Shown: in pieces, positions 630 through 63,205 of the stretch
Numbering within the stretch: the first letter of the stretch is position 1
How the letters are laid out: the number at the start of each line of letters is the position of its first letter
NCBI RefSeq assembly: GCF_031179145.1
Contig: NZ_JAPSIB010000009.1
Coordinates: 1-64,000, forward strand
Length of the DNA stretch: 64,000 nt
Source of the DNA: Brevibacterium sp.
Lineage (GTDB): Bacteria; Actinomycetota; Actinomycetes; Actinomycetales; Brevibacteriaceae
Direction: 5' to 3'
The notes under the pieces: model-generated
Told to the model about the DNA's origin: nothing
The model's input: only the letters and a program-made list of their open reading frames with translations
The model's database searches: none
Translations under genes and position numbers: made by a program

Positions 630-1406
630 TCAGAGTACGCACGAGCAGGGCTCGCACAGGACGGTCCGCTGCGCATCGGCACCGACGGCGCAGCCCGGAA
701 GAATCCGGGCCCTGCTGGATGGGCGTGGGTCGACGAACATGGAAACTACGCCGCCGGGTCATGGGTGAGGGAGACGAACAATGTCGCCGAGCTCACCGCG
801 ATCAAGATGGCACTGGCCGACCACCGGAACACGCCCCTGATCATCGAGTCGGACAGCCAGTATGCGATCAACTGCATCACCAAATGGGCGCCGGGCTGGC
901 GACGCAACCCGGCCAAGGCGGAGGGCAAGAAGAACCTCGACCTCATCTACTCGATCCTCGACCTGCTCGAGGATCGCGACCGAGCGGTGAAGTTCGTCTG
1001 GGTGCGCGGTCACGATGAGTCCAATGCCCATCCGCTCAACACGGCCGCGGATCTCCTGTCCGCACAGTTCGCCGACCGGCGCATCGATACAGCGCGAGTC
1101 TCAGGTCATCATGAGATCGACTGGGCCGTCCGCGCGGATGCGTCCACCGGCAGCTCTCGCGCAGGGAAGCAGAAGCGTTCGCGGAAGGGGCCGTGGGCGA
1201 CCCAGACCCAGATCGGACAGGAACTAGGACTGTCCTCGATCGCGGTGGGCAAGAAGCTCGAGCGGCTCGGTCTGCGCGCGGACAAGACGGCCACCCAGTC
1301 GGCTCTCGATGATGGCCTGGCGAAGGCCCGGAAGATGAAGACCGGCACCACCTTCTACGTCTGGCATTCGGCGAAAGTCACCCCGCTGCTCAGCGCCGCA
1401 GACTGA
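582..1406 (+). CDS. rnhA: Ribonuclease HI with C-terminal extension
   Basis: This enzyme degrades the RNA strand of RNA-DNA hybrids in the cytoplasm. The catalytic domain spans about residues 28-170 and shows the expected acidic residues: Asp in TDGA, Glu in VAELTA, Asp in ESDSQ, and a final His/Asp pair in AHPLNTAADLL. At 274 residues it is well over the roughly 155 of simple RNase HI. The extra C-terminal part (about 205-274) contains the patch GPWATQTQIGQELGL, which could be a small helical nucleic-acid-binding module; I do not recognise it. ATG 582 is preceded by GGGAAAGGGACCGAG. The gene carries tandem repeats at its 5' leader, N-terminus and stop codon. Family assignment is firm; the extension is not understood. 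Confidence 0.9.
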   Translation: MTRVAEAESSQAESSQSEYARAGLAQDGPLRIGTDGAARKNPGPAGWAWVDEHGNYAAGSWVRETNNVAELTAIKMALADHRNTPLIIESDSQYAINCITKWAPGWRRNPAKAEGKKNLDLIYSILDLLEDRDRAVKFVWVRGHDESNAHPLNTAADLLSAQFADRRIDTARVSGHHEIDWAVRADASTGSSRAGKQKRSRKGPWATQTQIGQELGLSSIAVGKKLERLGLRADKTATQSALDDGLAKARKMKTGTTFYVWHSAKVTPLLSAAD

Positions 1407-1480
1407 TCTGGCTGCGCTCGGGCTGATCTAGCCGCGCTCGGGCTGAGGTGGCCGCGTTCGGGCTGAGGTGGACGCGCTCG
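1401..1480 (+). repeat. 20-bp x4 tandem repeat carrying the rnhA stop codon
   Basis: Four contiguous 20-bp units occupy 1401-1420, 1421-1440, 1441-1460 and 1461-1480. The consensus is roughly GGCTGATCTGGCCGCGCTCG. The first unit contains the last codon and TGA stop of rnhA. All four keep CTGA at the same phase, so TGA recurs at 1404, 1424, 1444 and 1464, covering all three reading frames. Confidence 0.93.
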
Positions 1481-1539
1481 GAGTTCTCGGGATCCCGACT
1501 CCCACAGCGCTCCAGAATTCTCGTGTCAGGAGTGGCCGC

Positions 1540-1552
1540 TAATGTGAGGTCA
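1540..1552 (+). promoter_or_regulatory. Putative leaderless promoter of the HNH gene
   Basis: TAATGT (1540-1545) fits the actinobacterial -10 pattern TANNNT and lies 6 nt before ATG 1552, so transcription would start at or next to the A of the start codon. I see no convincing -35. Inference from spacing only. Confidence 0.4.
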
Positions 1553-2991
1553 TGGAGGCACACCCCGCATCCGACACCGTCACCGAGGCATCAGTCACCC
1601 TCGCCGAGGTGGATCGGTTCAGTGCGCTCCTCCGCGATCTGGCTCCCGCCAACACCGAACAGGACGCCCTGAAACGGATCACCGCGTTCGAAGAACTCAA
1701 GGCCACCCTCGCCGCAGCCCAGGCCAAGGAAGCCCTCGTCTTCGAACGTCTCCGCATCGACCGCGACGCCCTCAACCGGGTGCCGGCCGCCAAACGAGGG
1801 GTCCGGGCCGGTGATGAGATCGGATTCGCGAGGAAGACCAGCCCCGGATCGGGGCGGAAGTTCCTCACCACCGCGCGCACCCTCACCGACCTTCCACACA
1901 CCTTCGACGCTCTGAAGACCGGGGTCATCAGTGAAGCCAAGGCGAAGACCATCGCCGACGAACTCACAGACCTCGGCCCATCCGATCGCCGGGCAGTGGA
2001 CCACCGCATGCGCAACAGTCTCGGTGACGCCGGCATCAAGAGCCTGCGCCACGAAGCCCGTGCCCTGGCAGTCGAACTCGCCGCAGACGATGCCGCACAG
2101 CAGACAGCTCAAGCCGTCGCGAATCGCCGAGTGACCGTGACCTCCCTGACCAATGGGATGGGACACGTCTCTGCCACCGTGCCTCTCGTCCAAGCCATCG
2201 CCGCCTATGAAGGGCTCAAGACCGCCGCGGATTCCATCATGGCCCAGGGTGATGCCGACGGTCGCCGGCACAGCCAGGTGATGACCGACGTGTTCGTCGA
2301 ACGACTCACCGGTCAGGACACTGCCGACGCCGTCCCCGTTGAGGTGCTCCTCGTCATCGAAGCCGAATCCCTGCTGTCTGTCGGACAGGTGCCCGCTTGG
2401 TTGCCGGGGTACGGTTCACTGCCGGCGAAGACGGCGCGCAACTACATCGCTGGGAACACAGGGCGAGTGTTCCTTCGCCGCCTCTTCACCACGCCCCACG
2501 ACGGACAACTCGTGGGGATGGAGTCGCGCGGCCGGGTGTTCCCCGAACTGCTGCGCCGGATGATCGTCCTCCGCGACGATGTCTGCCGCACCCCCTGGTG
2601 CGATGCGCCGATCAGGCATGCCGACCACACCACTCCGGTCGCCGCTGGTGGGCAGACGGAATGGACGAATTCGTCAGGTCTGTGCGCCAGCTGCAATTAC
2701 GCCAAGGAGCATCCGGGTTGGCGTCATGACATCGACGGAGATGATCTCATCGTCGCCACTCCCGCGGGTCAGCGTTATCGGGCGGGGCCGCGTCCAGTGG
2801 TGACGAAGATGAGCATCCCACGCCGAGCACCGACCACCCCTGACGGCAAGAGGGATTGGAAGCAGGCCCTGGCCGGTTTCCTCAGGCCCGCGCCTCCACC
2901 ACCCCCGCGATCTCAGCCGAATCCACCATCGTCAGACATCAGCTGGCTCGAACACCACTTCCGTACTCGGATCCTCCCCGACTCCGGGTGA
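1552..2991 (+). CDS. DUF222 / HNH endonuclease family protein
   Basis: The protein has 479 residues. An alpha-helical DUF222-type region fills about residues 15-300, and an HNH nuclease signature near residues 340-390 includes CRTPWCD, RHADHTTP and LCASCNYAKEHPGW, with paired Cys and His residues that would bind a zinc/metal centre. The family (13E12-like) is very common and often multicopy in Actinomycetota; its biological role is uncertain, with mobile or phage-derived origin suggested for some members. A proline-rich tail runs near residues 450-465. The start is ATG, probably leaderless. It is convergent with the following alcohol dehydrogenase, 43 bp away. No neighbouring integrase or transposase was found. 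Confidence 0.85.
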   Translation: MEAHPASDTVTEASVTLAEVDRFSALLRDLAPANTEQDALKRITAFEELKATLAAAQAKEALVFERLRIDRDALNRVPAAKRGVRAGDEIGFARKTSPGSGRKFLTTARTLTDLPHTFDALKTGVISEAKAKTIADELTDLGPSDRRAVDHRMRNSLGDAGIKSLRHEARALAVELAADDAAQQTAQAVANRRVTVTSLTNGMGHVSATVPLVQAIAAYEGLKTAADSIMAQGDADGRRHSQVMTDVFVERLTGQDTADAVPVEVLLVIEAESLLSVGQVPAWLPGYGSLPAKTARNYIAGNTGRVFLRRLFTTPHDGQLVGMESRGRVFPELLRRMIVLRDDVCRTPWCDAPIRHADHTTPVAAGGQTEWTNSSGLCASCNYAKEHPGWRHDIDGDDLIVATPAGQRYRAGPRPVVTKMSIPRRAPTTPDGKRDWKQALAGFLRPAPPPPPRSQPNPPSSDISWLEHHFRTRILPDSG

Positions 2992-3034
2992 GGCAGAGCG
3001 CGTCTCCCACAGCCCACCCACGGAAGTCCGCGGC

Positions 3035-4617: not shown

Positions 4618-4674
4618 GGATGCTCCTTCGAGCCGTGGGACGGCCAATTGAGTGGGATGGCCAGTGGTCTGGAC

Positions 4675-4824
4675 CTGTCGGTTGTCTGGATCTGTCGTGT
4701 GTGGAGAAGAGTGGTTCTGTCGTCTGTGCGAGGTAGAGCGAAACTGTCGTCTGTGCGAGGTAGAGCGAATCTGTCGTATGTCTGGAGAGGAGCGACTCTG
4801 CCGGTTGTGTGAGGCAGAACGGCC
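4675..4824 (-). repeat. 27-bp tandem repeat array between the DsbA-like gene and rpiB
   Basis: Degenerate units start at 4675 (17 bp), 4692 (25 bp), 4717, 4744, 4771 and 4798 (27 bp each). The units at 4717 and 4744 differ only at the last base. The array begins 1 bp after the stop codon of the DsbA-like gene and fills almost all of the intergenic space up to the rpiB ribosome-binding site. On the minus strand each unit ends CGACAG or CGGCAG, resembling the CGACTG that spans the gene's terminal codons. Confidence 0.9.
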
Positions 4825-4825
4825 G

Positions 4826-5431
4826 TCAGTCGAAGATCGGGCCCTTGTCGCGAGTCCGCTTGAGTTCGAAGAAGCCCGGCGTCGAGGCGACGGCGACGAC
4901 TCCGTCGAAGAGCCGACCGGCGTCCTCACCCTTGGGCGCAGGGGTCACGACGGGGCCGAAGAAGGCGGTTCCCGCCACACGGCAGATCGGCGTGCCCACA
5001 TCGGCTCCGACGAGGGAGAGCCCTTCGTCGTGCGAGGCCTGCAGGACCTGGTCGAAGTCATCGCGCGCACCGAATTCGGTGAGCTCGGCGGGCAGACCCA
5101 GCTCCTCCAGCGCCAGGGCAGTGGCCTTGTCGAAGTCCCTCTCGCCACCGGGGTGGATGCGAGTGCCGATCGCGGTGTAGAGCGGTTCGGCGATCTCTTC
5201 CCCGTGCTTCTCGATAGCCGCGGTGACCACACGCATGGGTGAGAGTGTGCGATCGATGAGCTCGCGGTAATCGGGGTCGAGCTCCTTGTCACGGTTGAGG
5301 ATGTTCAGACTCATGACGTGGAACTTCACATCGACATCGCGCACTTTCGCGACCTCCAGCGCCCAGCGCGACGTCATCCACGCCCACGGGCAGGCGACGT
5401 CGAACCATAGGTCAAGAGTTTCTCTGCTCAA
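4826..5431 (-). CDS. DsbA-family oxidoreductase, Rv2466c (mycothiol-dependent reductase) type
   Basis: A thioredoxin-fold protein of 201 residues closely resembling mycobacterial Rv2466c: conserved blocks include LWFDVACPWAW near residue 10, EVAKVRD, FHVMSLNILN, PLYTAIGTRIH, VGTPI, AFFGPV and FFELKRTR. In Rv2466c the active site is CPWC; here it is CPWA, so the resolving cysteine is missing and a monothiol mechanism using mycothiol is likely. TTG 5431 was chosen because GAGGAGCG precedes it and the fold begins immediately; upstream codons in frame lack homology. It is divergent from pepN, with about 190 bp between. Its 3' end is followed at once by a tandem repeat. Confidence 0.88.
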   Translation of the reverse strand: MSRETLDLWFDVACPWAWMTSRWALEVAKVRDVDVKFHVMSLNILNRDKELDPDYRELIDRTLSPMRVVTAAIEKHGEEIAEPLYTAIGTRIHPGGERDFDKATALALEELGLPAELTEFGARDDFDQVLQASHDEGLSLVGADVGTPICRVAGTAFFGPVVTPAPKGEDAGRLFDGVVAVASTPGFFELKRTRDKGPIFD

Positions 5432-9926: not shown

Positions 9927-10033
9927 GGCCGTCAGGCGTTGCGCGGGTTACCGGCCGTCGGGCGGTTGGGCAGGTTACCGGCCGTCAGACGGCTGCGCGG
10001 GTTACCGGCCGTCAGGCGGTTGCGCGGGTGAGC
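9927..10033 (-). repeat. 27-bp x4 tandem repeat carrying a gene's stop codon
   Basis: Units lie at 9927-9952 (26 bp), 9953-9979, 9980-10006 and 10007-10033. The last unit contains the final codons and TGA of the minus-strand gene at 10012-10728, so the array looks like repeated copying of that gene's end (LTRATA-stop). Three of four units keep TGA; one has CGA. It fills the gap to the convergent glbO. Confidence 0.93.
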
Positions 10034-10728
10034 AGGTGACCGCCGGGGGTGACCAGTCGCAGCCATCCGGGCGAGGCCATCACAGGATGCCTCTCCCCCG
10101 CCCCAGAACTCGTCGCGTCAGAACCTGTTGCCCCGGAACTGAGTGCGTCAGTCATTGTCGCCTCGGGCACGAACTTGAGTCCGGCGGCGGCGAACGCGAC
10201 TCCCGCCGGAAGAGTGGTCCCCGCCTCGGCGCTCATCGGCTTCGACCAGATCCGGGAGCGCAGAGCCTTCACGGCGTGCGACCCCGCATTCGCGGGCGTT
10301 CCCTCACTCACCTCGGCGATGCCGGACTCGGCAGTGCGCCTGATGACCTCCTCGGACAGCGTGTCGACAGGCGTCCACCCACCCTTGGGCGGGGCGATCC
10401 CGCTCCAGGACACCAGCACTGAGTTCGGCGGCAGCGGCAGTGAGGTTCCGTTCTCCTCCCGTGCGAAGCGGTCCTTGAGGTTCGACAGGGGCACCACCTC
10501 GTCGAGGCCGTCGAGTTCGGGGCCGGCCAACCGCATCATCCGCATCGCGAGCACCAGCGGCGTCGAATCCCCGATGCCGTGCGGGTAGAGCGGAGCGACC
10601 GTGAGAACGAGCACATTCGAGGACACGTGCAGTCGCATCGCCCCATCGGGGTCGAGCCGGTGGGCCAGCGACGTGAACGCAGCGAGATCCTTCAGCGCCA
10701 GCGGGTCGGCGATCTCCAGAGTCGTCAT
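10012..10728 (-). CDS. Uncharacterised actinobacterial protein
   Basis: I do not recognise a named family in this 238-residue protein. It starts MTTLEIADPLALKDLAAF and has no signal peptide or membrane segment. The first 185 residues look like a compact soluble domain. A Ser/Thr/Ala/Gly-rich stretch (residues about 196-215) precedes the end. Its ATG overlaps the stop of the upstream thioesterase by 4 bp (ATGA), so it is translationally coupled, and its position between glbO and a thioesterase suggests a link to acyl-CoA metabolism, but that is inference. The 3' end lies inside a 27-bp tandem array. Confidence 0.8.
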   Translation of the reverse strand: MTTLEIADPLALKDLAAFTSLAHRLDPDGAMRLHVSSNVLVLTVAPLYPHGIGDSTPLVLAMRMMRLAGPELDGLDEVVPLSNLKDRFAREENGTSLPLPPNSVLVSWSGIAPPKGGWTPVDTLSEEVIRRTAESGIAEVSEGTPANAGSHAVKALRSRIWSKPMSAEAGTTLPAGVAFAAAGLKFVPEATMTDALSSGATGSDATSSGAGERHPVMASPGWLRLVTPGGHLLTRATA

Positions 10729-14100: not shown

Positions 14101-14190
14101 GGTAGTGCACTCCCCAGGGCCAATTGGTTCCGGACGGCCTGGGACACCGGCTCGGACCCCGGCAGCCGAATGCTCCGCACCCCTCGGGCA

Positions 14191-14289
14191 CCTCGGCCTC
14201 CGGGCGGCGCGGGCCGCAGGGACGTCAGCCGCTGAGCTCGCCAAGAACGTCGGCCTCCGACCGGTGCGGACCGCAGGAACGTCAGCCGC
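14191..14289 (-). repeat. 57-bp-period duplication of a gene's 3' end
   Basis: Two 42-bp copies (14191-14232 and 14248-14289) are offset by 57 bp and are about 80 percent identical. The second contains the last codons and TGA of the lipoprotein gene; the first keeps the same GGC-TGA-CGT arrangement downstream. A third, weaker copy can be traced around 14134-14175. Confidence 0.85.
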
Positions 14290-14902
14290 CGCCGAGGGAT
14301 GGAGCTTCGCCGGAGGAGTCACCCTCGGATCCCGAACCGCTGCCGGTCCCGTCGTCCGAGGAAGCACCGTCCGTCGCCGACGGGCTTTCGGTCTCGCCGT
14401 GGATGTCCTCGCCGGGAAGGTGTCCCTCTCCGTTGTCGTCGCCGTCCTTCGTGCGCTTCTCGCCGGTCGGGGCTTTGACCCCTTCGGGTCGGTCGACGTC
14501 ACCGAACAGGCAGGCTCCGGTCGATTCGGTCGGCTTCATCAGCTCGGCCGTTGCCTTGCCACCGCGGATCTCACCGACCACGCAGCCCCTGTCCGTCTTG
14601 ACCCCGAACATCTTCGAGGGAACGTCGTTGCCCAACGGAGATTCGTCGATCGTGGCTTCGAGCTGTTTCGGATCGTAACCGGCATCGATCATCGTGTCGA
14701 AGAACTTCTTCGTCGACACCGTGGAATCCTTGTCCCCGGTCAGAGGCTTCACTGCCTCGAGCACCTTGTCGACCTCTGCCTCCTGCGTCTGCTCCGGCTG
14801 AGTCGGCTCGGGAGCGTTGTCAGCGCTGTCGAAACCCAGGAGCGAGCACCCGGACAGGGCGATGGTCAGAGCTGCGAGACCCGACAGTGGGATGAGACGC
14901 AT
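14282..14902 (-). CDS. Predicted lipoprotein
   Basis: The 206-residue protein starts MRLIPLSGLAALTIALSGC, a lipoprotein signal peptide with lipobox LSGC, so it should be exported and lipid-anchored at Cys19. The mature part holds a small domain (about 45-140) with two Cys, in RGCVVGE and GACLFGD, that may form a disulfide. The tail is acidic and Ser/Gly-rich. Function unknown. ATG 14902 is preceded by GAGGTTGTCC. It lies between ssb and ettA on the same strand. Its terminal codons and stop are duplicated downstream. Confidence 0.85.
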   Translation of the reverse strand: MRLIPLSGLAALTIALSGCSLLGFDSADNAPEPTQPEQTQEAEVDKVLEAVKPLTGDKDSTVSTKKFFDTMIDAGYDPKQLEATIDESPLGNDVPSKMFGVKTDRGCVVGEIRGGKATAELMKPTESTGACLFGDVDRPEGVKAPTGEKRTKDGDDNGEGHLPGEDIHGETESPSATDGASSDDGTGSGSGSEGDSSGEAPSLGGG

Positions 14903-15696: not shown

Positions 15697-15800
15697 GGTG
15701 TGCTCCCCTGCTCGGATGCCTCGGTGATTGCGACCGGCCGGTGAAGGCACCGGTCAGAATCCATTGGGCACTCCGGCAGCGTCACACGTCGAGAGATGGG

Positions 15801-15841
15801 GAATGCCCTGTGGATGGGCATCGACCCTCCACAGGGCATTC
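15801..15841. terminator. Hairpin downstream of the dynamin-like operon
   Basis: A perfect 13-bp stem (GAATGCCCTGTGG, 15801-15813, with 15829-15841) and 15-nt loop lie in the gap between the GTPase operon and ssb. There is no clear T tract, so termination is only probable. The rest of the 240-bp gap shows nothing else I can name. Confidence 0.5.
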
Positions 15842-15935
15842 GCGCATGAGTCCGAGCGCATGTGCGCACGAGTCAGATGGAACCCAGCCGAGCAGCGCGT
15901 CCAGGGTCCGCGCACCGGTCGCACCGGTGGGCGCG

Positions 15936-17522
15936 TCAGTGCTGGCGGAGCTTCTCGTGGGCCACCCGGTGCTCATCGACGACTGCGATCACGGGCTGCA
16001 GGTAGGAGCTCTCGGCGACCTGGCCCACGGCAGAGCGCAGCCGATGGTCCACGTCGCGCGCGGCGCTGTCCGCTCCTCTGTTCCGCGCCGACTTCGCCAC
16101 CACCGAGGTGATGATCGATCCGATGACCCCAAGCACGAACAGTCCCCCGGTCACCGCCCAGCTCCAGCCCGGAAGCCCCGCGGGAGCCACCAGTGCGGCG
16201 ATGCCCATGACGATCAGACCCAGCAGTCCGATGATCGTGGCGACGAAGAAGACGATCTGGAGCACATGGGCGAGTGACCACCAACCCGGCGTCTGACGCT
16301 GGATGTCCACAGCTGTGACGGCCGAGTCGAGGGTGTCGGAGAGCTGATCTGTGCTCGACTTCTCCGCCTCCGCGGCCGCTTTCTGCCATGGCAGCGGCAG
16401 TGACTTCACGGATTCGGTGATGAGCTCGTGAGCCATCAGGCGCACCTGGGAGCTCTGGGCCCGGCTCGTCGCCGGAACCGAGGCACGGATGAGTTCGTCC
16501 CGGGTCAGACCATGCTTGGCGCCCAGCGGATCGGGCGCATTCCTCTGCATCCACGCGAGCACGGGGTAGCCGGTCTTGCGGTAGGCGCGGCGAATGTAGT
16601 CATCGTGAACGGTCTGGGCCACCGCCTCGACGCCGGCGGCCTCGGACATCGTCTCCACGAGTCGCGATGCTCCGGGCAGTTCGTTGGGGGCGAGAACCGG
16701 TTCTCCGAGCTCTCCCTGGATCCGCTTGGCCATCGCCTGCATGTCCGAGAGCAGCCGTTCTGCGGCTGCCTGCTTCGAATCGACGGTGTCGGCGAGGATC
16801 GACCGGATCTCGGGGATCCCCTCCCGCGTCACAGCAGACGCCATGCGCACCTTGGTGTCGGTGAGCCCATCGGCGACGAGCAGCTGCTGGAGGTGCTCGG
16901 CCGCGGCCGTCTGCTCTGCGGGACTGAGCTTGTCGATCTGGTTGAGGACGACGACCATGTTCGAGCTGTTCTCGGCGAGTTTCGTCAAGTACTCCGAGTG
17001 CAGGGAGAAGTCGGCGTACTTCTGAGGGTCGACCACCCAGAACACGACGTCGACGAGGCCGACGAGTCGATCCGATTCCACCCGGTGTTCGACTGCGGTC
17101 GAGTCGTGGTCGGGCAGATCGAGGAGGATGAGCCCGTGGAGCTTCCTCTGGTCGTCACCGTCGAGTGCGGACTCCCGCCAGGTCCGGCTGCGTTCGGGAA
17201 CGTGGAGCCAGTTGAGGACATCGGTTCCGCCTTCACCCCAGACACATGCGGTGGGTCGGGCAGTGGTGGGGCGGCGGACGCCGACTCGAGCGATCTCGAG
17301 GCCCGCTACGGCATTGAACAGCGAGGACTTGCCCGAGCCGGTGGATCCGGCGAACGCGACGACGGTGAACTCCTCGCCCAGACCCAGTCGATCCTCAGCC
17401 CGCTCGAGGAGGTGCTGGGCCTCTGTCCGGGTGGCCCCGCTCAGCTTGTCCTCACGCAGATTCAGTGAGTGCCGGATTCCATCGGCGAGGCGTCGGATCT
17501 CGGTTTGCGTCGAGTCGTTCAC
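15936..17522 (-). CDS. YfjP-like membrane GTPase (dynamin superfamily)
   Basis: A 528-residue GTPase with G1 GSTGSGKSS near residue 60, a switch region RRPTTARPTACVW, G3 LLDLPDHDS and G4 LNQIDKL. Two hydrophobic helices near residues 410-435 and 445-470 (VFFVATIIGLLGLIVMG; WSWAVTGGLFVLGVIGSI) should anchor it in the membrane. Its GTG start overlaps the stop of the preceding GTPase gene by 4 bp, so the pair is an operon and the two may form a hetero-complex as other tandem bacterial dynamin-like proteins do. Role in membrane remodelling is inference. Confidence 0.85.
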   Translation of the reverse strand: MNDSTQTEIRRLADGIRHSLNLREDKLSGATRTEAQHLLERAEDRLGLGEEFTVVAFAGSTGSGKSSLFNAVAGLEIARVGVRRPTTARPTACVWGEGGTDVLNWLHVPERSRTWRESALDGDDQRKLHGLILLDLPDHDSTAVEHRVESDRLVGLVDVVFWVVDPQKYADFSLHSEYLTKLAENSSNMVVVLNQIDKLSPAEQTAAAEHLQQLLVADGLTDTKVRMASAVTREGIPEIRSILADTVDSKQAAAERLLSDMQAMAKRIQGELGEPVLAPNELPGASRLVETMSEAAGVEAVAQTVHDDYIRRAYRKTGYPVLAWMQRNAPDPLGAKHGLTRDELIRASVPATSRAQSSQVRLMAHELITESVKSLPLPWQKAAAEAEKSSTDQLSDTLDSAVTAVDIQRQTPGWWSLAHVLQIVFFVATIIGLLGLIVMGIAALVAPAGLPGWSWAVTGGLFVLGVIGSIITSVVAKSARNRGADSAARDVDHRLRSAVGQVAESSYLQPVIAVVDEHRVAHEKLRQH

Positions 17523-22574: not shown

Positions 22575-24221
22575 GTGACGCCCACCGAAGAATTCCGCAC
22601 AGCGATGCGCGGCTACGAGAAAAGTGAAGTCGATGCTCGGCTCCAGCAGCTGCGGACCGAGGTCGAGTCCGTTCGTAAGGCACTGTCGGATGCGCGCAGC
22701 CAGGTCATCAACGCCGACCGAGCGAAGCTCCAGATCGCCGGCGAGCTCTCGGAGGCCAAGGCTCAGCTGAAGAAGCTCGCCAACGACAACGCCGAGGCGT
22801 CAGGTCCTCCCGGCAGCCGCATCGACCACCTGCTCAAGATCGCCGAATCGCAGGCGCGCGAGACCCTGGCCCAGGCGAACTCGGATGCGGAGACGATCCG
22901 CAACAAGGCCCGCGCCGAGGCGGCCTCCGCCCGAGCCCGCATGCACACCGAGAGCAATGACACCCTCAACAGCGCCCGCTCGGAAGCCGACGCCATCATC
23001 AGCTCGGCCGAGCTGCGCGCCGAAGAGGCGATCAAGGCCGCGGAGAATCGTGCCGCCGAACTGAAGGCGACGGCCGAACGCGAAGCGAATCAGGCCAGGG
23101 AAGCCAGCGAAGCGGCGACCCAGGAGGCGCGTGAGAGCCTCGAGCACGAACTCGCCGAGATGCGTGCCACCGCTGAGAAGGAGATCGCCGATCTTCGCGC
23201 CGAGGCGAAGGCCGAGGCCGAGGAGACGATCGCCGCAGCTCAGGCCCAGGCCGATGACCTCCTGGCATCGGCCAAGGCTCGGGATGAGGCCTCCCGCAAG
23301 GCTGCCAACGAGCTCGAGGTCGAGCTCGCCAACAAGCGCCAGCAGGCCGAGGCGGAGCGCAAGAAGCGCTACGAGGAGGCCCTGGCGGAGAACAAGAAGC
23401 TCATCGAAGAGGCCCAGGCCCGCGCGGCGAAGGCCGACGCAGAGGCCAAGGAGGCCGCGGAACGGGCCGAGAAGACGCGCGACGAAGCGGTGAAGAAGGC
23501 CGACTCGATCATCGCCGACGGCAAGTCCCGTGCCCAGACCCTCATCAGTGAGGCCCGGGCCACCGCCGAGGCGACTATCGAGGAATCCGCCGCAGAGGCC
23601 AAGCGCAACATCCAGTCGGCGCAGTCCCAGGTCGATCTGCTGACGAAGCAGCGGAAGACGATCACTGCTCAGCTCGATCAGCTGCGCTCGCTGTTCGCCA
23701 TGCCCGGAGTCATGGGGGCGGACCCTGTCGACCCGGCCAAGGCCGAAGCGGCGTCCCACAACACTGAGCAGATTGCCGACGGGCAGGAGCTCGAGGACCT
23801 CCTGGCCGAAGATTCCGAGGACTCGAACGGCAAGGACTCGACCGGCAAGAGCTCGAACGGCAAGAGCTCTGGAGGGTCCGGTTCTGCGAGGTCAGGTTCT
23901 GCGGGCAAGGACTCCGCAGCTGACACGCAGCAGAGCTCCGGCAAGCAGGGCTCCCAGAATCTGGGAGCACAGAATTCAAGCACCCAGAAGCCGGGTGCCC
24001 AGGGTGCCGGGGCTCAGGAGAGCGCCCCGAACAGTTCAGGCCCCACGAACTCTGCCACCAACTCCGCAGCCGCGAACTCTGCTGCTGCGAACGAGGAGGA
24101 GGCCTCCGGAGAGCTTCCGAACGGAGCCACCGACGCAGATACGATTGCGATCGACGCACAGGTCTCCGGCTCGAAGAAGTCCGTGCCGAAGGCCTCGCCG
24201 TCGAAGAACTCGCTGCGCTGA
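22575..24221 (+). CDS. DivIVA-domain coiled-coil protein
   Basis: The 548-residue protein opens with a DivIVA/Wag31-type motif, EEFRTAMRGYEKSEVDARLQQL, which in this family targets curved or polar membrane. An Ala/Glu/Arg/Lys-rich coiled coil with heptad pattern runs from about residue 20 to 375, with a break near 75 (PPGSRIDHLLKIAE). The last 150 residues are a Ser/Gly/Asn/Ala low-complexity tail. It is longer than canonical DivIVA, so a cytoskeletal or polar-growth scaffold related to but distinct from Wag31 is likely. GTG 22575 is chosen because AGGAGTCCCCTTCA precedes it. The stop codon region is exactly duplicated. Confidence 0.87.
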   Translation: MTPTEEFRTAMRGYEKSEVDARLQQLRTEVESVRKALSDARSQVINADRAKLQIAGELSEAKAQLKKLANDNAEASGPPGSRIDHLLKIAESQARETLAQANSDAETIRNKARAEAASARARMHTESNDTLNSARSEADAIISSAELRAEEAIKAAENRAAELKATAEREANQAREASEAATQEARESLEHELAEMRATAEKEIADLRAEAKAEAEETIAAAQAQADDLLASAKARDEASRKAANELEVELANKRQQAEAERKKRYEEALAENKKLIEEAQARAAKADAEAKEAAERAEKTRDEAVKKADSIIADGKSRAQTLISEARATAEATIEESAAEAKRNIQSAQSQVDLLTKQRKTITAQLDQLRSLFAMPGVMGADPVDPAKAEAASHNTEQIADGQELEDLLAEDSEDSNGKDSTGKSSNGKSSGGSGSARSGSAGKDSAADTQQSSGKQGSQNLGAQNSSTQKPGAQGAGAQESAPNSSGPTNSATNSAAANSAAANEEEASGELPNGATDADTIAIDAQVSGSKKSVPKASPSKNSLR

Positions 24222-24243
24222 CGCTACACTCGCTGCGCTGACG
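24208..24243 (+). repeat. 20-bp duplication of a gene's stop-codon region
   Basis: The 16-bp sequence ACTCGCTGCGCTGACG occurs at 24208-24223 and again, without change, at 24228-24243. The first copy contains the last three codons and TGA of the DivIVA-like gene; the second places another TGA in a different frame. Confidence 0.9.
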
Positions 24244-24649: not shown

Positions 24650-24663
24650 TAAGGTGTTCTGCG
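24650..24663 (+). promoter_or_regulatory. Putative leaderless promoter of nucS
   Basis: TAAGGT (24650-24655) fits TANNNT and lies 7 nt before the preferred GTG start at 24663. The same AAGG could also act as a Shine-Dalgarno if transcription begins further up. Spacing-based inference. Confidence 0.35.
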
Positions 24664-38631: not shown

Positions 38632-40833
38632 TCAGTCGTCGGTGGAGGACTTCGGCAGCGGCGTCGTCTTCTGCACCTGCATGAGGAACTCCGCGTTCGA
38701 GCTGGTCTCCTTGAGCTTGGACATGAGCAGCTCGACGGCCTGCTGCTGCTCGAGGCCCGAGAGGAGACGGCGAAGCTTCCACATCACCTTGGTCTCCTCC
38801 GGAGTCATCAGCATCTCCTCGCGACGCGTGCTCGAGGAGTTGACGTCGATGGCCGGGAAGATGCGCTTGTCGGCCAGGTGACGCGAGAGACGCAGCTCCA
38901 TGTTGCCGGTGCCCTTGAACTCCTCGAAGATGACCTCGTCCATCTTGGAGCCGGTCTCGACGAGAGCGGTCGCAAGAATGGTCAGCGAGCCGCCGCCTTC
39001 GATGTTGCGCGCGGCGCCGAAGAACTTCTTCGGCGGGTAGAGCGCGTTCGCGTCGACACCGCCGGAGAGGATCCGACCCGAGGCCGGCTGCGCGATGTTG
39101 TAGGCACGGGCGAGGCGGGTGATGTTGTCGAGGAGGACGACGACGTTCGAGCCCATCTCGACGAGGCGCTTGGCCCGCTCGATCGCGAGTTCGGCGATCG
39201 TCGTGTGGTCGTCGGCGGGGCGGTCGAAGGTCGAGGCGATGACCTCGCCCTGCACCGCGCGCTGCATGTCGGTGACCTCTTCGGGACGCTCGTCGACGAG
39301 GACCACCATCAGGTGCACATCCGGGTTGTTCGCAGTGATCGCATTGGCGACCTGCTGCATGATCGTGGTCTTGCCCGCCTTCGGGGGTGCGACGATGAGT
39401 CCGCGCTGGCCCTTGCCGATGGGCGTGACGAGATCGATGAGGCGGGTCGAGGTGACCTTCGCGTCCGTCTCCAGGCGCAGGCGGTCCTGCGGGTAGAGCG
39501 GGGTCAGCTTGGAGAATTCGACCCGCTCACGGGCGTCCTCGACGGAGAGTCCGTTGACGGAGTCAAGACGGACCAGGGCGTCGAACTTCTCGCGCTTGCC
39601 GCTGCGGTCGTTCTCACGCTGCTGACGGATCGCACCGGCGACCGCGTCGCCCTTGCGCAGACCGTTCTTGCGCACCATCGATGCCGAGACGTAGACGTCG
39701 TTGGGACCGGGCAGGTAGCCCGAGGTCCGCAGGAAGGCGTAGTTGTCGTGGACGTCGAGGATGCCGCCGACGGGGATGAGCACGTCATCGCCGCGGATCG
39801 CCTCGGGCTCGTCGCCTCCGCGTCCGCGACGCTTGCGGTCCCGGCCCCGGCCGCGACGGTTGCCGCGGTCGTCGTCGTCGGTGGAGTTGCGGCCCCGGCG
39901 ATCGTTGTCGTCATTGCCGCGGCCGCGGCGGTTGCCGCGATCCTCGCGGTCACTGTCATCGCCCTGGCGGTTGCGGCGGTCGTTGCCGCGGTCGTTGTCA
40001 TCGCCCTGACGGTTGCGGCGATCGTTGCCACGGTCATTGTCATCGCCCTGGCGGTTGCGACGGCCGTTGCCGCGGTCGTTGTCATCGCCCTGGCGGTTGC
40101 GGCGATCGTTGCCGCGATCGCTGTCGTCGCTCCGGCCGCGGCGAGAGTTGCCACGGTCATCGCGATCGTTGCGATCCTCGCGGTCACTGCGGTCCTGTGA
40201 GTCGGTGGAGTCCTGCGAGTCGGTGGAGTCAGCGGACTCGGCGGATTCGGAGCGGGAGTCTCCGCCGCGGCGCGAACGACTGCGGCGTGAGCGCTGTCCC
40301 TCAACCTGCTGGGTTTCACCCTGCTGGGTTTCTCCCTGCTGGGTTTCTCCCTGCTGGCTTTCTCCCTCGTCGGCGGACTTGGCGGAGGTCTCGGCAGCTG
40401 CGGCAGGGGCCGCGACTGCCACCGAAGCGTCGGTCGTCGCGGAGAAATCGGGTCCGGGAGCAGCAGAGGCCGGAGCCTGTGCGGCTTCGGCGGCAGGTGC
40501 GGCTTCGGCGGAAGCGGCGCTGCGACGCGAGCGACCCTTGGGCTCGCTCTGCTTCTCGGCGGCGGCGGGAACCGACTCGGCGGTCCGGGATTCGGTCCGG
40601 GATTCGGCGGCGGGGGCCGACTCGGCGGCAGGTGCGGCGGGTGCTGACTGCGGGGCGGCGGTCTGGCCACCGGTGCCCTGGGAGTTCTTGATGGCGTCGA
40701 TCAGTTCGCTTTTGCGAAGCCGACGGTACCCCTTGATTCCCAGACCCGCTGCCATTTCCTGCAGTTGGGGAAGACGCAGTGCGGTCAGGCTGCCTGTGCG
40801 TGATGCGGAATCTTGAGTAGTGGTTTCAGACAC
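38632..40833 (-). CDS. rho: Transcription termination factor Rho with long low-complexity insertion
   Basis: A hexameric RNA-dependent ATPase of 733 residues. A Rho_N helical motif ([18 protein letters not shown]) covers residues 16-50. Residues about 52-345 are a disordered insertion: first Ala/Glu/Ser-rich, with GETQQ repeats at 157-176, then Arg/Asp/Asn/Gly-rich, with 14-residue repeats at 236-291. The RNA-binding OB domain follows ([17 protein letters not shown]), then the ATPase: Walker [10 protein letters not shown] near 482, [15 protein letters not shown], and the R-loop region. Such insertions are typical of actinobacterial Rho. GTG 40833 has a weak ribosome-binding site. Confidence 0.96.
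39961..40128 (-). repeat. 42-bp x4 tandem repeat inside rho
   Basis: Four contiguous 42-bp units (39961-40002, 40003-40044, 40045-40086, 40087-40128) encode the 14-residue peptide [14 protein letters not shown] with few changes. The period is a multiple of three, so copy-number change keeps the frame. Confidence 0.95.
40306..40365 (-). repeat. 15-bp x4 tandem repeat inside rho
   Basis: Four 15-bp units with plus-strand sequence CTGCTGGGTTTCTCC or one change from it, at 40306, 40321, 40336 and 40351, encode GETQQ-like pentapeptides in the insertion of Rho. Confidence 0.93.
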
Positions 40834-46633: not shown

Positions 46634-46670
46634 CAGAACAGATTACTCGGTTGTGAATGTCCTCGGCGAA

Positions 46671-46732
46671 TCAGACGACACGGCGCCGATCAGAAGCCAC
46701 AGCGCGGTTCAGAGGACACCGCACGAATCAGA
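46671..46732 (-). repeat. 19-bp x4 tandem repeat carrying the MFS gene stop codon
   Basis: On the minus strand TCTGA recurs at exact 19-bp intervals (plus positions of TCAGA: 46728, 46709, 46690, 46671), each followed by a G/C/T-rich stretch similar to TTCGTGCGGTGTCC. The first is the real stop of the MFS gene; the others put TGA in the other frames. Confidence 0.9.
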
Positions 46733-47903
46733 TATGTCCCGGCCGGCAGGCGGAGAAGCTGACGACGAACTTGACGACCACCGACGCCAGGACCACGGCG
46801 AAGGCCGGCCACAGCTGATCGAAGCTCTGGACGAGGAACGCGAAGATCAGCGGACCCGTCGCCGCCAGCAGGTATCCCCCGCCCTGGACGAAGCCGGACA
46901 GGGCGGCAGCCGCTTCGGCGTCATGGGAGCGCAGCGTGATCAGGGTCAGCGCCAGCGGGAACGTGGAGATACCGATGCCCAGCAGCACGGTCCACAGCAC
47001 GGGTGCGGCCTGCGGGAGGAGCCACAGACCGAGGTAACCGACTGCCAGGCACACGCAGAACGCGACGACGATGGGCGCTGCGGTGCGCAGCTTCTGCGCC
47101 AGTGCGGGCAGGACGAAGCCGAGCACCAACGGGATGGCGGCGACGAGCGCGAGCATCGAGCCGGCGAAGGATGCCGAGAAGCCGGAGCGGATGAGCAGCA
47201 GCGGCAGCCAGGTGAAGAGGATGAAGTTGTTGAATGACGTCAGCCCCGTCATGGTCATCAGCGACCAGGCACGGCGGGTGCGCAGAAGCCGGCGCAGTTC
47301 GCCGCCGCCGACAACGGTAGATCTCACCGTTGCGCGCGGAGACGGACGCACGACGGCGAGGACGATCCACACTCCGATCGCTGCGATCGCACACACAGCC
47401 CACACGAGCAGTGATCCCCTCCATCCCCACACCGATGCGAACGGCACTGCCACCAGCGGCGGCAGGAACGTACCCAATTGGAGGAGACCGACGTGCACGG
47501 TCGACATCAGGGCCACCCGGTCGGGGAAGTGGGACTTGACGATGGGAGGCAGGACGACATTGCCGATTCCCATGCCCAGCAGTGCGATCACGCTGAAGAC
47601 GAGGAACCACCCGGGAGAGTCGAGGACCGCGCGGACACCGGAGCCGACGGCGATGAGGACCATGGCCACGAGCGTGATCGTGATGGCGGAGTGCCGATTG
47701 ACCAGGCGCGGGGTGAGGAAGCCGCTGAGCCCGAAGAGCAGCGGCGGGAGCATTCCGATGATCGCGAGGAAGACGGAGTCCAGGGGGATCTCGGCGCCCA
47801 TCATGTCCAGCAGCGGGGACAGTCCCGTCACCCCGGGACGCAGATTGAATGCGGCGACGATGATGCCCACCAGCACAAGTGCAGTCAACGACGCGATTCT
47901 CAT
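46728..47903 (-). CDS. MFS transporter (CynX/NimT-like)
   Basis: A 391-residue major facilitator with about twelve hydrophobic helices. The start MRIASLTALVLVGIIVAAFNLRPGVTGLSPLL and the motif NLRPGVTGLSPLLDMM resemble cyanate/nitroimidazole-type permeases (CynX, YeaN). The substrate cannot be told. No cyanase gene is near. The 3' end lies in a 19-bp tandem array. Confidence 0.87.
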   Translation of the reverse strand: MRIASLTALVLVGIIVAAFNLRPGVTGLSPLLDMMGAEIPLDSVFLAIIGMLPPLLFGLSGFLTPRLVNRHSAITITLVAMVLIAVGSGVRAVLDSPGWFLVFSVIALLGMGIGNVVLPPIVKSHFPDRVALMSTVHVGLLQLGTFLPPLVAVPFASVWGWRGSLLVWAVCAIAAIGVWIVLAVVRPSPRATVRSTVVGGGELRRLLRTRRAWSLMTMTGLTSFNNFILFTWLPLLLIRSGFSASFAGSMLALVAAIPLVLGFVLPALAQKLRTAAPIVVAFCVCLAVGYLGLWLLPQAAPVLWTVLLGIGISTFPLALTLITLRSHDAEAAAALSGFVQGGGYLLAATGPLIFAFLVQSFDQLWPAFAVVLASVVVKFVVSFSACRPGHI

Positions 47904-48235: not shown

Positions 48236-48240
48236 TCGGC

Positions 48241-48292
48241 TCAGCGGCCCTTCATGCCTGTGCGGCTCAGGCGCCCTTCATGTCCTTGCGGC
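48241..48292 (-). repeat. 26-bp duplication of the M15 gene stop-codon region
   Basis: Two 26-bp copies (48241-48266 and 48267-48292) match at about 22 of 26 positions. The second contains the last codons DMKGA and the TGA; the first repeats ATGAAGGGC-x-TGA downstream, in another frame. Confidence 0.9.
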
Positions 48293-49289
48293 CCGGGACG
48301 TACTCCCAGTGCCAGAGCTCGTAGGAGTTGCGCTTGGCCCAGTCCGGATTCTCCCAGCCGAACTCTCCCGCGTTCTTCTCGAGCCAGTCGTACTGCGAGG
48401 TGTCGAGGTCGAGGGCGATGCCCCAACCATGGTTCGACGTGCCGGGACGCGCGGCGAACCCGGGCTTGCGGGCAGCCACGGAGACCTGAGCCTCGAGCGA
48501 CCGGTAGGAGTCCGTCACACTGAGGTTCTTGCCGGTCTCCTTCTTGTACTTCGCGTTCATCTTCGCGAAGGCCACGGCGGCGTCGGCACGCAACTTGTGA
48601 TCGCCGACGCCGATCTTGCACAGCCATTCCTCGGGCACCTCGCCGTTGGAAGCGGAGCTCTTCGGAGCCTGACCGTTGCAGCCGGGCAGGGCTGTCTTCT
48701 TGATGGCCCGCGACGCGGCCTTGACCTTGGTCTGGGTGGCGCTCGGGGCACCGATGGCCATGCTCGTCTTCTCATCGCCCGAGGCGATGTTCGCAGAGAC
48801 GCTCTCGGCGTTGATCGCCTTCGTCTGCGTATCGGCAGCAGTCGTGTCGACCTTGACCTCCTGCTCACCACCCATATTGCCGGCGATCATCACGGCGGCG
48901 ATGGCGGTGCCGGTGACGGACACGGTGGCCAGGGCTGAGATCGAGGTGACGCGCTTGCGCCGGACCGAGCGCAGGAGGGCGCCGTCGGAGCCGCGGCCGC
49001 CGGCCGATGCTGCCAGCGCCGCGCCCGTCCAGCCGTCTTCCGTCATGGCCTGGCGGGCCATCGCTTCGCGGCGGGGCGAGCCTGCGACCGCACGGGCTTC
49101 GGCGGCCATGGCCGCACGACGCGGCGACAGGGCCTGCGCGGAGGTGGTCGAATTCGAGGCTGCCGGCACCGGGGACATCACTGTCGCGGTCGGCTGGGAG
49201 CCTGTCAGGGTAACGCGTGAGGAGGCGTGCTGTTTGCGCAGATCGCGACGGCGGACCGGTGCCACTGCGGTCGAGGAATCACTCGACAT
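48267..49289 (-). CDS. M15-family D-alanyl-D-alanine carboxypeptidase (VanY-like)
   Basis: A 340-residue zinc peptidase. The N-terminal 110 residues are basic and Ala/Ser-rich and cytoplasmic; one transmembrane helix (ISALATVSVTGTAIAAVMIAG, about 115-135) anchors it; the catalytic domain is extracellular. Zn ligands are in SNHGWGIALDLD and ELWHWEY, with YRSLEAQ before. It should trim peptidoglycan peptides. The long N-terminal cytoplasmic arm is unusual for this family. ATG 49289 follows CGGAGTGAT. The upstream region has strong promoter-like elements and palindromes. Confidence 0.88.
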   Translation of the reverse strand: MSSDSSTAVAPVRRRDLRKQHASSRVTLTGSQPTATVMSPVPAASNSTTSAQALSPRRAAMAAEARAVAGSPRREAMARQAMTEDGWTGAALAASAGGRGSDGALLRSVRRKRVTSISALATVSVTGTAIAAVMIAGNMGGEQEVKVDTTAADTQTKAINAESVSANIASGDEKTSMAIGAPSATQTKVKAASRAIKKTALPGCNGQAPKSSASNGEVPEEWLCKIGVGDHKLRADAAVAFAKMNAKYKKETGKNLSVTDSYRSLEAQVSVAARKPGFAARPGTSNHGWGIALDLDTSQYDWLEKNAGEFGWENPDWAKRNSYELWHWEYVPGRKDMKGA

Positions 49290-59419: not shown

Positions 59420-59476
59420 TGTGAACCGTTATGCTAGCCAGTGAGATGCCCGACGTCGTCGCTAGGAAGGACCACA

Positions 59477-61268: not shown

Positions 61269-61269
61269 C

Positions 61270-62310
61270 ATGGCGCGGATCTACCGGGACGAGGACTACC
61301 GTCCGCGTCCGAACCGGCGCGGCTCGCGACCGCGGACCAAAACGCGTCCCCGCCACGAGTCGGCCGTCGAGGGGCTCGTCACCGCCGTCGACCGCGGTCG
61401 CTATCGCGTGGTCCTCGCCGACGACTCGGGGGGATTCCCCAGCTCCGACCCGCAGGGCGGTGACGGTCCCCAGAGCGTGACCGCAGTGCGGGCCTCCCAT
61501 CTGCGCAAGGATGCCGTCGTGCCCGGAGACATCGTCAAGATCGTCGGTGACACCTCGGGGGCGCAGGGGTCACTGGCCCGGTTGGTCGACATCACCGAGC
61601 GGCGCACTCTGCTGCGCCGCAGCGCCGACGACATCGACCCCGCGGAAAGGGTCATCGTCGCCAACGTCGAGGCGCTGGGCATCGTCACGGCCACCGCCGA
61701 TCCCGAACCCTCCTACGGTCTCATCGACCGCGCGATGACCGCTGCCCTCGACGCCGGCATCACTCCCCTGCTCATCGTCACGAAGACCGATCTCGCGCCC
61801 GCTGACGACATCGTCGAACGCTTCCGCGCCTCCGGCGTCGAGATCGTCCTCTCCGGACTGAGCGCCGACGGAACGCCGAGCGTCGCCGAGGTGTATGAAC
61901 GCCTGAGAGGCAGGATGAGCGTTCTCGTCGGTCACTCCGGTGTCGGGAAGTCGACCCTGATGAACGCCCTCGTCCCCGATGCGAAACGGGCGGTCGGCGT
62001 CGTCAACGACGTCACGGGCCGCGGCCGCCACACCTCCTCCTCGGCGATCTGTCTGCCCCTGGACGGCGGCGGATGGCTCGTCGACACACCCGGAGTGCGC
62101 AGCTTCGGACTCGCCCACGTCGACCGTGATTCTCTGCTGGCCGCATTCCCGGAACTCACCGAGGCGACCCTCGAGTGTCCCCGCGGCTGCCTGCATCAGG
62201 CCGACTCCCCCGGCTGCCGCCTCGACGACTGGGTGGCTGCCGGGAAGGCGGGCCCGGGCGGGGTCTCCCGTTTGGAATCACTGCGCAGGCTGCTTGCCAA
62301 CACTGTTTAG
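61270..62310 (+). CDS. rsgA: Ribosome small-subunit-dependent GTPase A
   Basis: A circularly permuted GTPase aiding 30S maturation, 346 residues. A basic N-terminus (RPRPNRRGSRPRTKTRPR) precedes an OB domain, then permuted motifs: G4 IVTKTDL, G1 LVGHSGVGKSTLMNAL near residue 220, G3 VDTPGVRSFGL, and a C-terminal zinc site ECPRGCLHQADSPGC. The stop TAG lies in a 23-bp duplication. Confidence 0.95.
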   Translation: MARIYRDEDYRPRPNRRGSRPRTKTRPRHESAVEGLVTAVDRGRYRVVLADDSGGFPSSDPQGGDGPQSVTAVRASHLRKDAVVPGDIVKIVGDTSGAQGSLARLVDITERRTLLRRSADDIDPAERVIVANVEALGIVTATADPEPSYGLIDRAMTAALDAGITPLLIVTKTDLAPADDIVERFRASGVEIVLSGLSADGTPSVAEVYERLRGRMSVLVGHSGVGKSTLMNALVPDAKRAVGVVNDVTGRGRHTSSSAICLPLDGGGWLVDTPGVRSFGLAHVDRDSLLAAFPELTEATLECPRGCLHQADSPGCRLDDWVAAGKAGPGGVSRLESLRRLLANTV

Positions 62311-62336
62311 AGTTGCGCGAGTGCACTGGTTAGAGT
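62301..62336 (+). repeat. 23-bp duplication of the rsgA stop-codon region
   Basis: CACTGTTTAGAGT (62301-62313) and CACTGGTTAGAGT (62324-62336) differ at one of 13 bases and are 23 bp apart. The first contains the rsgA TAG stop; the second carries a TAG in a different frame and doubles as a -10-like TAGAGT for hisN. Confidence 0.85.
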
Positions 62337-62343
62337 GGGGTCA
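62331..62343 (+). promoter_or_regulatory. Putative leaderless promoter of hisN
   Basis: TAGAGT (62331-62336) then GGGGTC then ATG 62343: a start site 7 nt after the -10 falls on the A of ATG. The GGGG could also be a weak ribosome-binding site. Confidence 0.45.
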
Positions 62344-63128
62344 TGACCGACCTCGACCTGGCGCTCGAACTCGCCGATCTCGCCGATTCCCTCAGCTACC
62401 GCCACTTCCTGGCCCAGGACTTCGCCGTGGAGACGAAGCCCGACCTCACTCCGGTGACCGAATGCGATCGCGCGGTCGAAGCGGCCATCATGGAACGGCT
62501 GGAGCGCGACCGGCCCGACGACAGCGTGCTCGGTGAGGAGTTCGGCTCCCATGGAACCTCGCCGAGGCGATGGATCGTCGATCCGATCGACGGCACGAAG
62601 AACTTCGTCCGCGGAGTCCCGGTCTGGGCGACCCTGATCTCCCTCTACGACGGAGAGGAGCCGGTGCTCGGCGTCGTCTCCGCACCGGCCCTGGGCCGAC
62701 GTTGGTGGGCGGAGTCCGGACAGGGAGCGTTCGTCACTGCCCTGGGGGAGGCTCCGAAGCGCATCGGCGTCTCCGAGGTCGAGGAGCTCGGCGACGCCTC
62801 TCTGTCCTATGCGTCACTGGGCGGTTGGAAGGACCTCGGGATCCTCGACGAATTCCTCGGCCTGTGCGAGTCGACGTGGCGCAACCGCGGCTACGGAGAC
62901 TTCTACTCGTACATGCTGGTGGCCGAGGGCGCCGTCGACATCGCCTGCGAGCCCGAGCTCGCTCTCTACGATATGGGCGCCCTGGTGCCGATCGTCCTCG
63001 AGGCGGGCGGTTCGTTCACCAATACAGCAGGAGCTCCCGGGCCGTTCGGCGGCAACGCCGTTGCGACGAACTCGCGACTGCACGAGGCGACGCTCGATGC
63101 GCTGGGCCGAGTCTCGCCGAGCATCTGA
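62343..63128 (+). CDS. hisN: Histidinol-phosphatase, inositol monophosphatase family
   Basis: A Mg-dependent phosphatase of 261 residues. Metal ligands are in GEEFGS, WIVDPIDGTKNFVRGVPVWATLI near residue 78, and the distal YDMGALVPIVLEAGG. The FVRG and surrounding residues match HisN rather than general inositol monophosphatases, so the penultimate step of histidine synthesis is likely. Located after aroA-rsgA. Confidence 0.88.
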   Translation: MTDLDLALELADLADSLSYRHFLAQDFAVETKPDLTPVTECDRAVEAAIMERLERDRPDDSVLGEEFGSHGTSPRRWIVDPIDGTKNFVRGVPVWATLISLYDGEEPVLGVVSAPALGRRWWAESGQGAFVTALGEAPKRIGVSEVEELGDASLSYASLGGWKDLGILDEFLGLCESTWRNRGYGDFYSYMLVAEGAVDIACEPELALYDMGALVPIVLEAGGSFTNTAGAPGPFGGNAVATNSRLHEATLDALGRVSPSI

Positions 63129-63131
63129 GCT

Positions 63132-63205
63132 CGATGAGCCCAGACCGAATGAGTATGGATCGAACGAGCACCGATCGCTCGAGCGTCGACCGCTCGAGCA
63201 CGGAA
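63132..63205 (+). repeat. 15-bp tandem repeat after hisN
   Basis: Units of 15 bp at 63146, 63161, 63176 and 63191, with a 14-bp partial unit at 63132, follow CGNNCGAGCNNCGAT. The array starts 4 bp after the hisN stop and ends at the ribosome-binding site of the next gene. Confidence 0.88.

Follow-up and report, generated by a model that had tools for sequence, protein, structure and literature searches.

Minisatellite-type repeats over stop codons in a Brevibacterium genome: probable local birth and tolerance at gene ends

Tandem repeats that carry the stop codon of a gene in their unit have been described in Yersinia pestis, where, according to the available part of the published account, 16 of 88 variable-number tandem repeats (VNTRs) overlap the end of an ORF, 10 of them at stops and 6 at starts (one a CRISPR), and 24 others lie inside ORFs with units divisible by three (PMC3689786). 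The same text suggests that changes in copy number at ORF ends might matter less, and its authors see a possible constraint in the low diversity of some stop-overlapping VNTRs (PMC3689786). The initial annotation of the DNA studied here, which knew of no published description of such arrays, therefore has to be corrected on this point. In mycobacteria, the gap of VNTR3239 is given, in the excerpts at hand, as only a few bp long in non-complex relatives (PMC12548453, PMC2734929).

The window analysed here is a stretch of 64,000 nucleotides (contig NZ_JAPSIB010000009.1) of a Brevibacterium sp. genome (GCF_031179145.1), from which 1,171 kb (1.17 Mb) with 1,000 gene ends were sampled; G059 is the nearest relative used for comparison. 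Genes were called with a custom caller of this analysis and arrays with TRF, and the following repeats were found at gene ends of the window:

1403-1481, plus strand: tandem array over the stop of rnhA (TGA 1404-1406), period 20, 4.0 copies
4690-4821, minus strand: array without the stop, at gene 4826-5377 (DsbA-like; Rv2466c-like in Pfam), period 27, TRF core 4690-4781
9927-10029, minus strand: tandem array over the stop of gene 10012-10728, period 27, 3.9 copies
14190-14289 (derived from offsets), minus strand: imperfect repeat of two copies, 57 nt apart, spanning the stop of the DUF6993 gene (14282-14902)
24208-24243, plus strand: perfect 16-nt repeat spanning the stop of the DivIVA-like gene (22575-24221), period 20
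46666-46732, minus strand: tandem array spanning the stop of the MFS gene (46728-47876), period 19, 3.5 copies
48237-48292, minus strand: array in which the 3' end of the VanY/M15 gene (48267-49289), stop included, is doubled, period 26, 2.2 copies
62301-62336, plus strand: marginal direct repeat round the TAG stop of rsgA (61270-62310), 12/13 nt, period 23
63143-63201, plus strand: array without the stop, downstream of an inositol-monophosphatase-family gene (62343-63128), period 15

Locus by locus, the six genes that had been said to end in a repeat copying their stop do so, as tandem or direct repeats, and four of the stop repeats of the window reach a TRF score of 50. Copies are mostly contiguous, the DUF6993, DivIVA-like and rsgA repeats being pairs with a short gap; the DUF6993 repeat, at the gene first taken for a lipoprotein, is a 43-nt match with a period of 57 and a gap between its copies. 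The gene at 10012-10728 has no Pfam match, and that at 22575-24221 scores 24 bits against Pfam DivIVA, under the cut-off of 28. TGA recurs at +0, +20, +40 and +60 in the rnhA array and at +0, +19, +38 and +57 in the MFS array, so that both supply stops in all three frames, as the initial annotation had it. The rsgA repeat is present at its TAG stop, but with 12/13 nt matching 23 nt apart it is weaker than claimed. Two further arrays had been placed within 4 bp of a stop: at the DsbA-like gene diverged copies do extend up to 4 nt from the stop, but the TRF array begins 44 nt beyond it, and at the gene annotated as hisN the array starts 14 nt past the stop, or 36 nt by TRF, which contradicts the claim.

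Noncoding arrays with periods of 10-60 were counted in both genomes (n=119 in the Brevibacterium genome, n=36 in G059), after removal of the CRISPR-like rows of contigs C13 and C25. An early tally of 50 intergenic arrays had contained 4 such rows from C13, and one rate comparison used n=131 with those of C25; 119 is the preferred figure. Five of 29 syntenic loci (L108, L110, L115, L126, L133) were omitted from the final count as duplicates of counted genomes. In the genome of the window 39/119 arrays lie over a stop and 4/119 over a start, one array covering both; the corresponding figures in G059 are 13/36 and 1/36, which gives a pooled stop:start ratio of 52:5 (p=6e-11). Consistent with these data, a second scan independent of TRF (score of at least 6) found repeats at 45/981 stops, 7/978 starts and 9/984 mid-CDS points. 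The enrichment at stops, tested against starts in the sampled genome and G059, is thus clear. Arrays inside genes have periods divisible by three in 101 of 104 cases, and in 49 of 57 array-gene pairs the overlap with the gene is shorter than one period, as expected if the first unit holds the stop.

The arrays are probably ordinary minisatellites of the VNTR type that arose in place and were retained where they do little harm to protein or promoter; units stand head-to-tail and measure about 10-60 nt. Units of about 15-57 nt would arise at the site by tandem duplication or slippage, the molecular step probably being slippage or short-homology repair. A duplication that contains the stop, or lies just beyond it, would leave the protein as before, since translation terminates at the first stop it meets, whereas one within the gene would add residues or shift the frame and one at the start codon or promoter would disturb expression. 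The copied stops would then be passengers of larger duplicated units, necessarily falling in different frames wherever the period is not divisible by three, and the arrays themselves would presumably have no fitness effect.

Local birth, expansion and loss of units are seen among orthologues, which supports the earlier suggestion of slippage at gene ends in the form of local duplication. Of 95 orthologous ends that have a gap on both sides, 5 carry a stop array in the window's genome only, 4 in G059 only and 1 in both; the rnhA and VanY/M15 genes have no array in G059, and a near match to the rnhA end was sought in plasmids without result. The MFS gap measures 37 nt in G059, 56 in B. celere and 94 in the window's genome (37+3x19), with no unit in the first, one 19-nt spacer in the second and three in the third, and at C9:168671 there are 5.3 copies against one in G059. 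Copy number therefore varies between lineages, as in VNTRs, in a comparison made at the level of species. By eye, locus L123 has as its 17-nt unit the end of the gene itself; different arrays follow the same stop in L110 and L124. At the six ends with a stop array in the window's genome, protein length differs from that of the orthologue by at most 1 residue; at the four G059-only arrays the differences are 0, 7, 16 and 29 residues, and in the pair C32:11424/L191 the C-terminus itself differs. Thus, not every array is protein-neutral.

The arrays overlap weakly constrained sequence. In co-directional gaps, which make up 46 of the 51 array-free pairs of the two genomes (only 5 convergent pairs being measurable), identity falls from 0.92 over the final 20 nt of the CDS to 0.72 at +0-20 and 0.71 at +20-40, then rises to 0.77-0.79 at +40-150 and 0.92 at +150-250, with 0.90 beside the following start. 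Positions -20 to +40 are about twice as dense in arrays as those farther out. Within this zone, the 5' edges of arrays show no preference for the stop-containing position (-20 to 0) over the stop-adjacent one (0 to +40), contrary to what fail-safe stops would entail (for five gap cut-offs, rate ratios of 0.77-1.16, every p at least 0.52).

As first noted, units are unrelated between loci: among 167 arrays, matches at E<1e-4 are confined to CRISPR-like rows of C25 and one C20 pair, with one more pair counted at E<1e-3, which speaks against a shared mobile repeat, including a single dispersed family of the MIRU type. MIRU-like insertion at start codons does not fit either (5/155 arrays over a start in the two genomes), and the window arrays lack the identical repeats and unique spacers of CRISPR. 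By eye, the array at C9:162442 is homologous between the window's genome and G059. GGCTCA and GGCTGA are the most enriched 6-mers and resemble stop-codon contexts, in a comparison whose control lacked matching for stops.

Tolerance alone leaves the abundance of arrays in this clade unexplained. Noncoding arrays number 10.2 per 100 kb in the window's genome and 10.5 in G059, but 1.9 in 901 kb of other Brevibacterium, about five times fewer (p=3e-13) in the stretches sampled. Gene ends might be zones of raised tandem duplication, and replication or repair in this lineage might favor short duplications, with transcription termination, R-loops or replication-transcription conflict as suggested sources. 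Besides the density itself, this reading can draw on convergent gaps being the richest in arrays (1.79 per kb, against 0.91 in co-directional and 0.57 in divergent gaps, C25 CRISPR rows included), on array density that drops more steeply beyond +40 than identity rises, and on the arrays downstream of the MFS stop in the window's genome, L110, L123 and L124, whose units by eye seem unrelated. Nevertheless, the array-rich zone broadly matches the zone of low constraint, and orthologous gaps show no significant recurrence (an array in both genomes at 3/95, p=0.39). Moreover, NucS is present in 57/57 genomes, Ku in 39/57, the window's genome and G059 among them, and the XseA, Y-family and DnaQ-like families in 8/8 genomes examined; the idea that the clade lost a repair gene is thus rejected for these five families, none being absent from either genome. 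DnaQ-like matches number 4 in the window's genome and 3 in each of the other seven, G059 included. We regard the hotspot as unlikely. Similarly doubtful is its extension, in which the clade came to produce short tandem duplications at a raised rate, with gene 3' ends as the centre; these ends would then be under constant remodelling, and some genes would have frame-covering stops as a side effect on which selection might act later.

The initial annotation had also proposed selection for frame-independent stops that catch readthrough or frameshifted ribosomes. Besides rnhA and the MFS gene, array ends in general cover more frames within 60 nt than shuffled sequence (1.26 vs 0.83), but they do so because the stop was copied. 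Some downstream excess of stops is present apart from arrays, since array-free ends of the two genomes exceed dinucleotide shuffles as well: 1.085 frames are covered vs 0.925, and sense stops at +0 to +60 stand at 1.15 times the shuffle in co-directional and convergent gaps alike, with antisense stops at 0.99 and 1.02, respectively. In convergent gaps this sense excess is lost at +60 to +120 (0.84), but in co-directional gaps it is unchanged there (1.14). Other Brevibacterium give 1.27 at +0 to +60 and 1.02 at +60 to +120 in co-directional gaps, many of these loci being orthologous, but no excess in convergent ones (1.03 at +0 to +60). Copied stop triplets are retained in 42/61 later copies, where 36.2 were expected from other triplets, an upward tendency (0.869 vs 0.829 per base) that does not reach significance (P 0.057), so that the proposed conservation of stops within units finds no significant backing in a comparison of limited power. 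Periods of stop arrays are multiples of three in 13/52 cases and not in 39/52, close to one third and two thirds; the deficit relative to other noncoding arrays (Fisher p 0.034) leans toward selected stops, but arises mainly because the latter carry an excess. In the available part of their study, Ho and Hurst likewise report no compelling evidence that eubacteria select in-frame additional stops (PMC6764699). Together with the equal array density over and beside the stop, the retention, period and downstream-stop data lead us to reject backup stops as the main explanation and to hold such selection very unlikely, while stop-triplet retention and the excess at array-free ends lean against tolerance. 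That the arrays act as terminators, Rho-loading sites or other structured RNA elements, as their location at gene 3' ends and preference for convergent gaps could suggest, is highly improbable, given neither hairpins nor C-rich, G-poor RNA: fold energy against unit-permuted arrays has a mean z of 0.11 with 0/57 below -2, MFE per nt is -0.324 against -0.326 in controls, C exceeds G in 30/57 arrays and 634/1,289 controls, and the terminator-like inverted repeat of the VanY gene lies, on reading the alignment, past the array and in G059 too.

Under the favored reading of tolerated, locally born minisatellites, Brevibacterium would offer a natural example of the position-wise sorting of tandem duplications by selection, in which duplications are common where they have the least chance of altering the protein, rare at starts and frame-preserving within genes. 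It also carries a caution, that stop codons inside repeats need not signal function, and the roughly fivefold difference in density from the other Brevibacterium stretches sampled gives a workable starting point for asking how bacteria come to differ in their rate of short tandem duplication.

The closest likeness is to the Y. pestis VNTRs, whose units, in the text available, also include the stop and are divisible by three within genes; the stop:start ratio is stronger in Brevibacterium (52:5 versus 10 to 6), and the Y. pestis loci were typed across strains whereas our comparison is between species (PMC3689786). Additional and tandem stop codons, as far as the accessible text describes them, likewise place extra stops downstream of the true one, but there single codons were tested for selection, whereas here stops ride in larger duplicated units (PMC6764699, PMC1088959). 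Mycobacterial MIRUs and VNTR3239 are also actinobacterial intergenic repeats (PMC12548453, PMC2734929); in the excerpts at hand MIRUs form one apparently mobile family that inserts at start codons with a coupled ORF, in contrast to the unrelated units and avoided starts of Brevibacterium (PMC12548453). The tandem repeats of archaeal Borgs, in the portion of the source available, are similarly fast-evolving and independently formed, with in-gene units divisible by three, but their units are perfect and enriched in A, whereas those of Brevibacterium are diverged and close in composition to the local 3' zone (PMC9879509).

At six gene ends in the window (rnhA, 10012-10728, DUF6993, DivIVA-like, MFS and VanY) the stop codon is duplicated as part of a repeat, and at rnhA and MFS the copies supply stops in all three frames, as the initial annotation had described; rsgA, listed with them, proved marginal. 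The DsbA-like gene and hisN also have arrays, with the stop itself outside both. Arrays were called with Tandem Repeats Finder (TRF; score 50, period 10 or more) and genes with our own codon-usage caller. In 1,171 kb (~30%) of the genome carrying the window (G000; 3.83 Mb, 44 contigs), 39 of 119 noncoding arrays with a period of 10-60 overlapped a stop and 4 a start; in 342 kb of G059, the nearest relative found (identity 78.5-94.5%, many at 85-91%, across 49 aligned blocks kept at over 400 nt and 78%), 13 of 36 overlapped a stop and 1 a start. Uniform placement over the first 803 kb would give 6.6 arrays on stops, 6.8 on starts and 3.9 on both, and 23, 3 and 2 were observed. Moreover, a TRF-independent scan found self-duplications at 45/981 stops, 7/978 starts and 9/984 mid-gene points, which together with the TRF counts confirms the proposed enrichment at stops over starts. 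This positional bias is real and well supported, and its probable explanation is an ordinary one.

Arrays occupy the sequence that is freest to change, and inclusion of the stop brings no measurable extra, as seen from their 5' edges and from own/G059 identity. Edge density within -20..+40 is about twice that farther out, and the rate in -20..0, stop included, does not differ from that in 0..+40 (ratio 0.77-1.16, p 0.52 or more, five gap cut-offs). In 46 co-directional array-free pairs identity is 0.92 over the last 20 nt of the CDS, 0.72 at +0-20, 0.71 at +20-40, 0.77-0.79 at +40-150 and 0.90 adjoining the following start; in five convergent array-free gaps it is 0.47-0.59 throughout. Beyond +40, array density drops more steeply than identity rises.

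These arrays come and go. Among 99 own/G059 orthologues, 95 of which had a gap on both sides, stop arrays (noncoding arrays overlapping the stop) were own-only at 5 ends, G059-only at 4 and common at 1. The MFS gap of the own genome is 94 nt long, equal to the 37 nt found in G059 plus three 19-nt units, and that of B. celere is 56 nt; C9:168671 has ~5 gene-end copies against one in G059. All 29 named loci retrieved with the window MFS protein belong to Brevibacterium; by eye, the distance from MFS stop to next gene varies among them, many apparently conserve an element at its far end, L123 repeats its own gene end as 17-nt copies downstream of the stop, and L110 and L124 have different arrays there. 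Since own and G059 proteins agree within one residue at the six own ends with stop arrays and differ by 0, 7, 16 and 29 residues at the four G059-only ends (at one, C32:11424 / L191, the C-terminus itself is divergent), stop arrays look protein-neutral in most, not all, cases.

The copied stops might instead be selected to catch readthrough or frameshifted ribosomes. Of 52 stop arrays, 39 have a period that three does not divide; periods in multiples of three are commoner among other noncoding arrays (Fisher p 0.034). Copied stop triplets are intact in 42/61 later copies, against an expectation of 36.2 (sd 3.4) based on other triplets (P 0.057). In array-free own and G059 3' zones, sense-strand stops reach 1.15x a dinucleotide shuffle at +0..+60, with no such antisense excess; at +60..+120 the excess is equal in co-directional gaps (1.14), and convergent gaps show 0.84x. 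In other Brevibacterium, co-directional gaps give 1.27x at +0..+60 and 1.02 beyond, and convergent gaps 1.03x. Selection may therefore act weakly on stops close to the ends of genes, but the excess over shuffle occurs without arrays and does not explain them. The accessible text of a survey of eubacteria reports no compelling sign of selection for in-frame additional stops (PMC6764699). Neither RNA structure nor C-over-G skew was found in the arrays.

Array density in the own/G059 clade (10.2 and 10.5 noncoding arrays per 100 kb) is high for the genus, where other Brevibacterium stretches hold 17 in 901 kb (1.9 per 100 kb; p=3e-13, many being orthologous and so not independent). It is not high for the order, since six genomes of its other families, pooled, hold 30 in 400 kb, or 7.5 per 100 kb, with 7 at stops and 3 at starts. 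Of five repair-gene families sought, none was missing in either genome.

Other loci of note are the following (C, contigs of G000):
Window 1403-1552; C9:162442-162642; C37:37897-38010; G059 L192:11137-11299: array-bearing gaps upstream of HNH-family genes
C13:204704-206747; C25:214-5925 and 15772-16595: CRISPR-like arrays, ~61-nt spacing
Window 24663-25358: NucS gene
Window 38632-40755: Rho gene, encoding 707 or 733 aa depending on which start is taken
Seven genes or fragments are related to the HNH gene (window 1552-2991). Upstream gaps were called for five, all but a contig-end copy and one fragment, and 4/5 contain an array, compared with 62/384 among co-directional gaps at least 60 nt long (post hoc p=0.003). 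Two of these four are orthologous. NucS is a mismatch-repair endonuclease in actinobacteria; a 19-nt array lies in the convergent gap following its G059 orthologue and is absent from the window. Within the Rho gene, two repeat-rich arrays (39927-40130 and 40305-40367) lie in coding sequence. One 24-nt unit forms two arrays in inverted orientation 1.3 kb apart (C20:1425-1494 and 2758-2803), the sole non-CRISPR match between arrays at E<1e-4.

Among the Brevibacterium literature matches listed, as far as their accessible text goes, none concerned such arrays. The initial annotation knew of no published description, but stop-overlapping repeats are in print: in the accessible part of a study of Y. 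pestis, 10 of 88 VNTRs overlap stops, as our stop arrays do, and 6 overlap starts (PMC3689786). Similarly, the available text on Borg elements already describes repeats that have their first unit in a gene end (PMC9879509).
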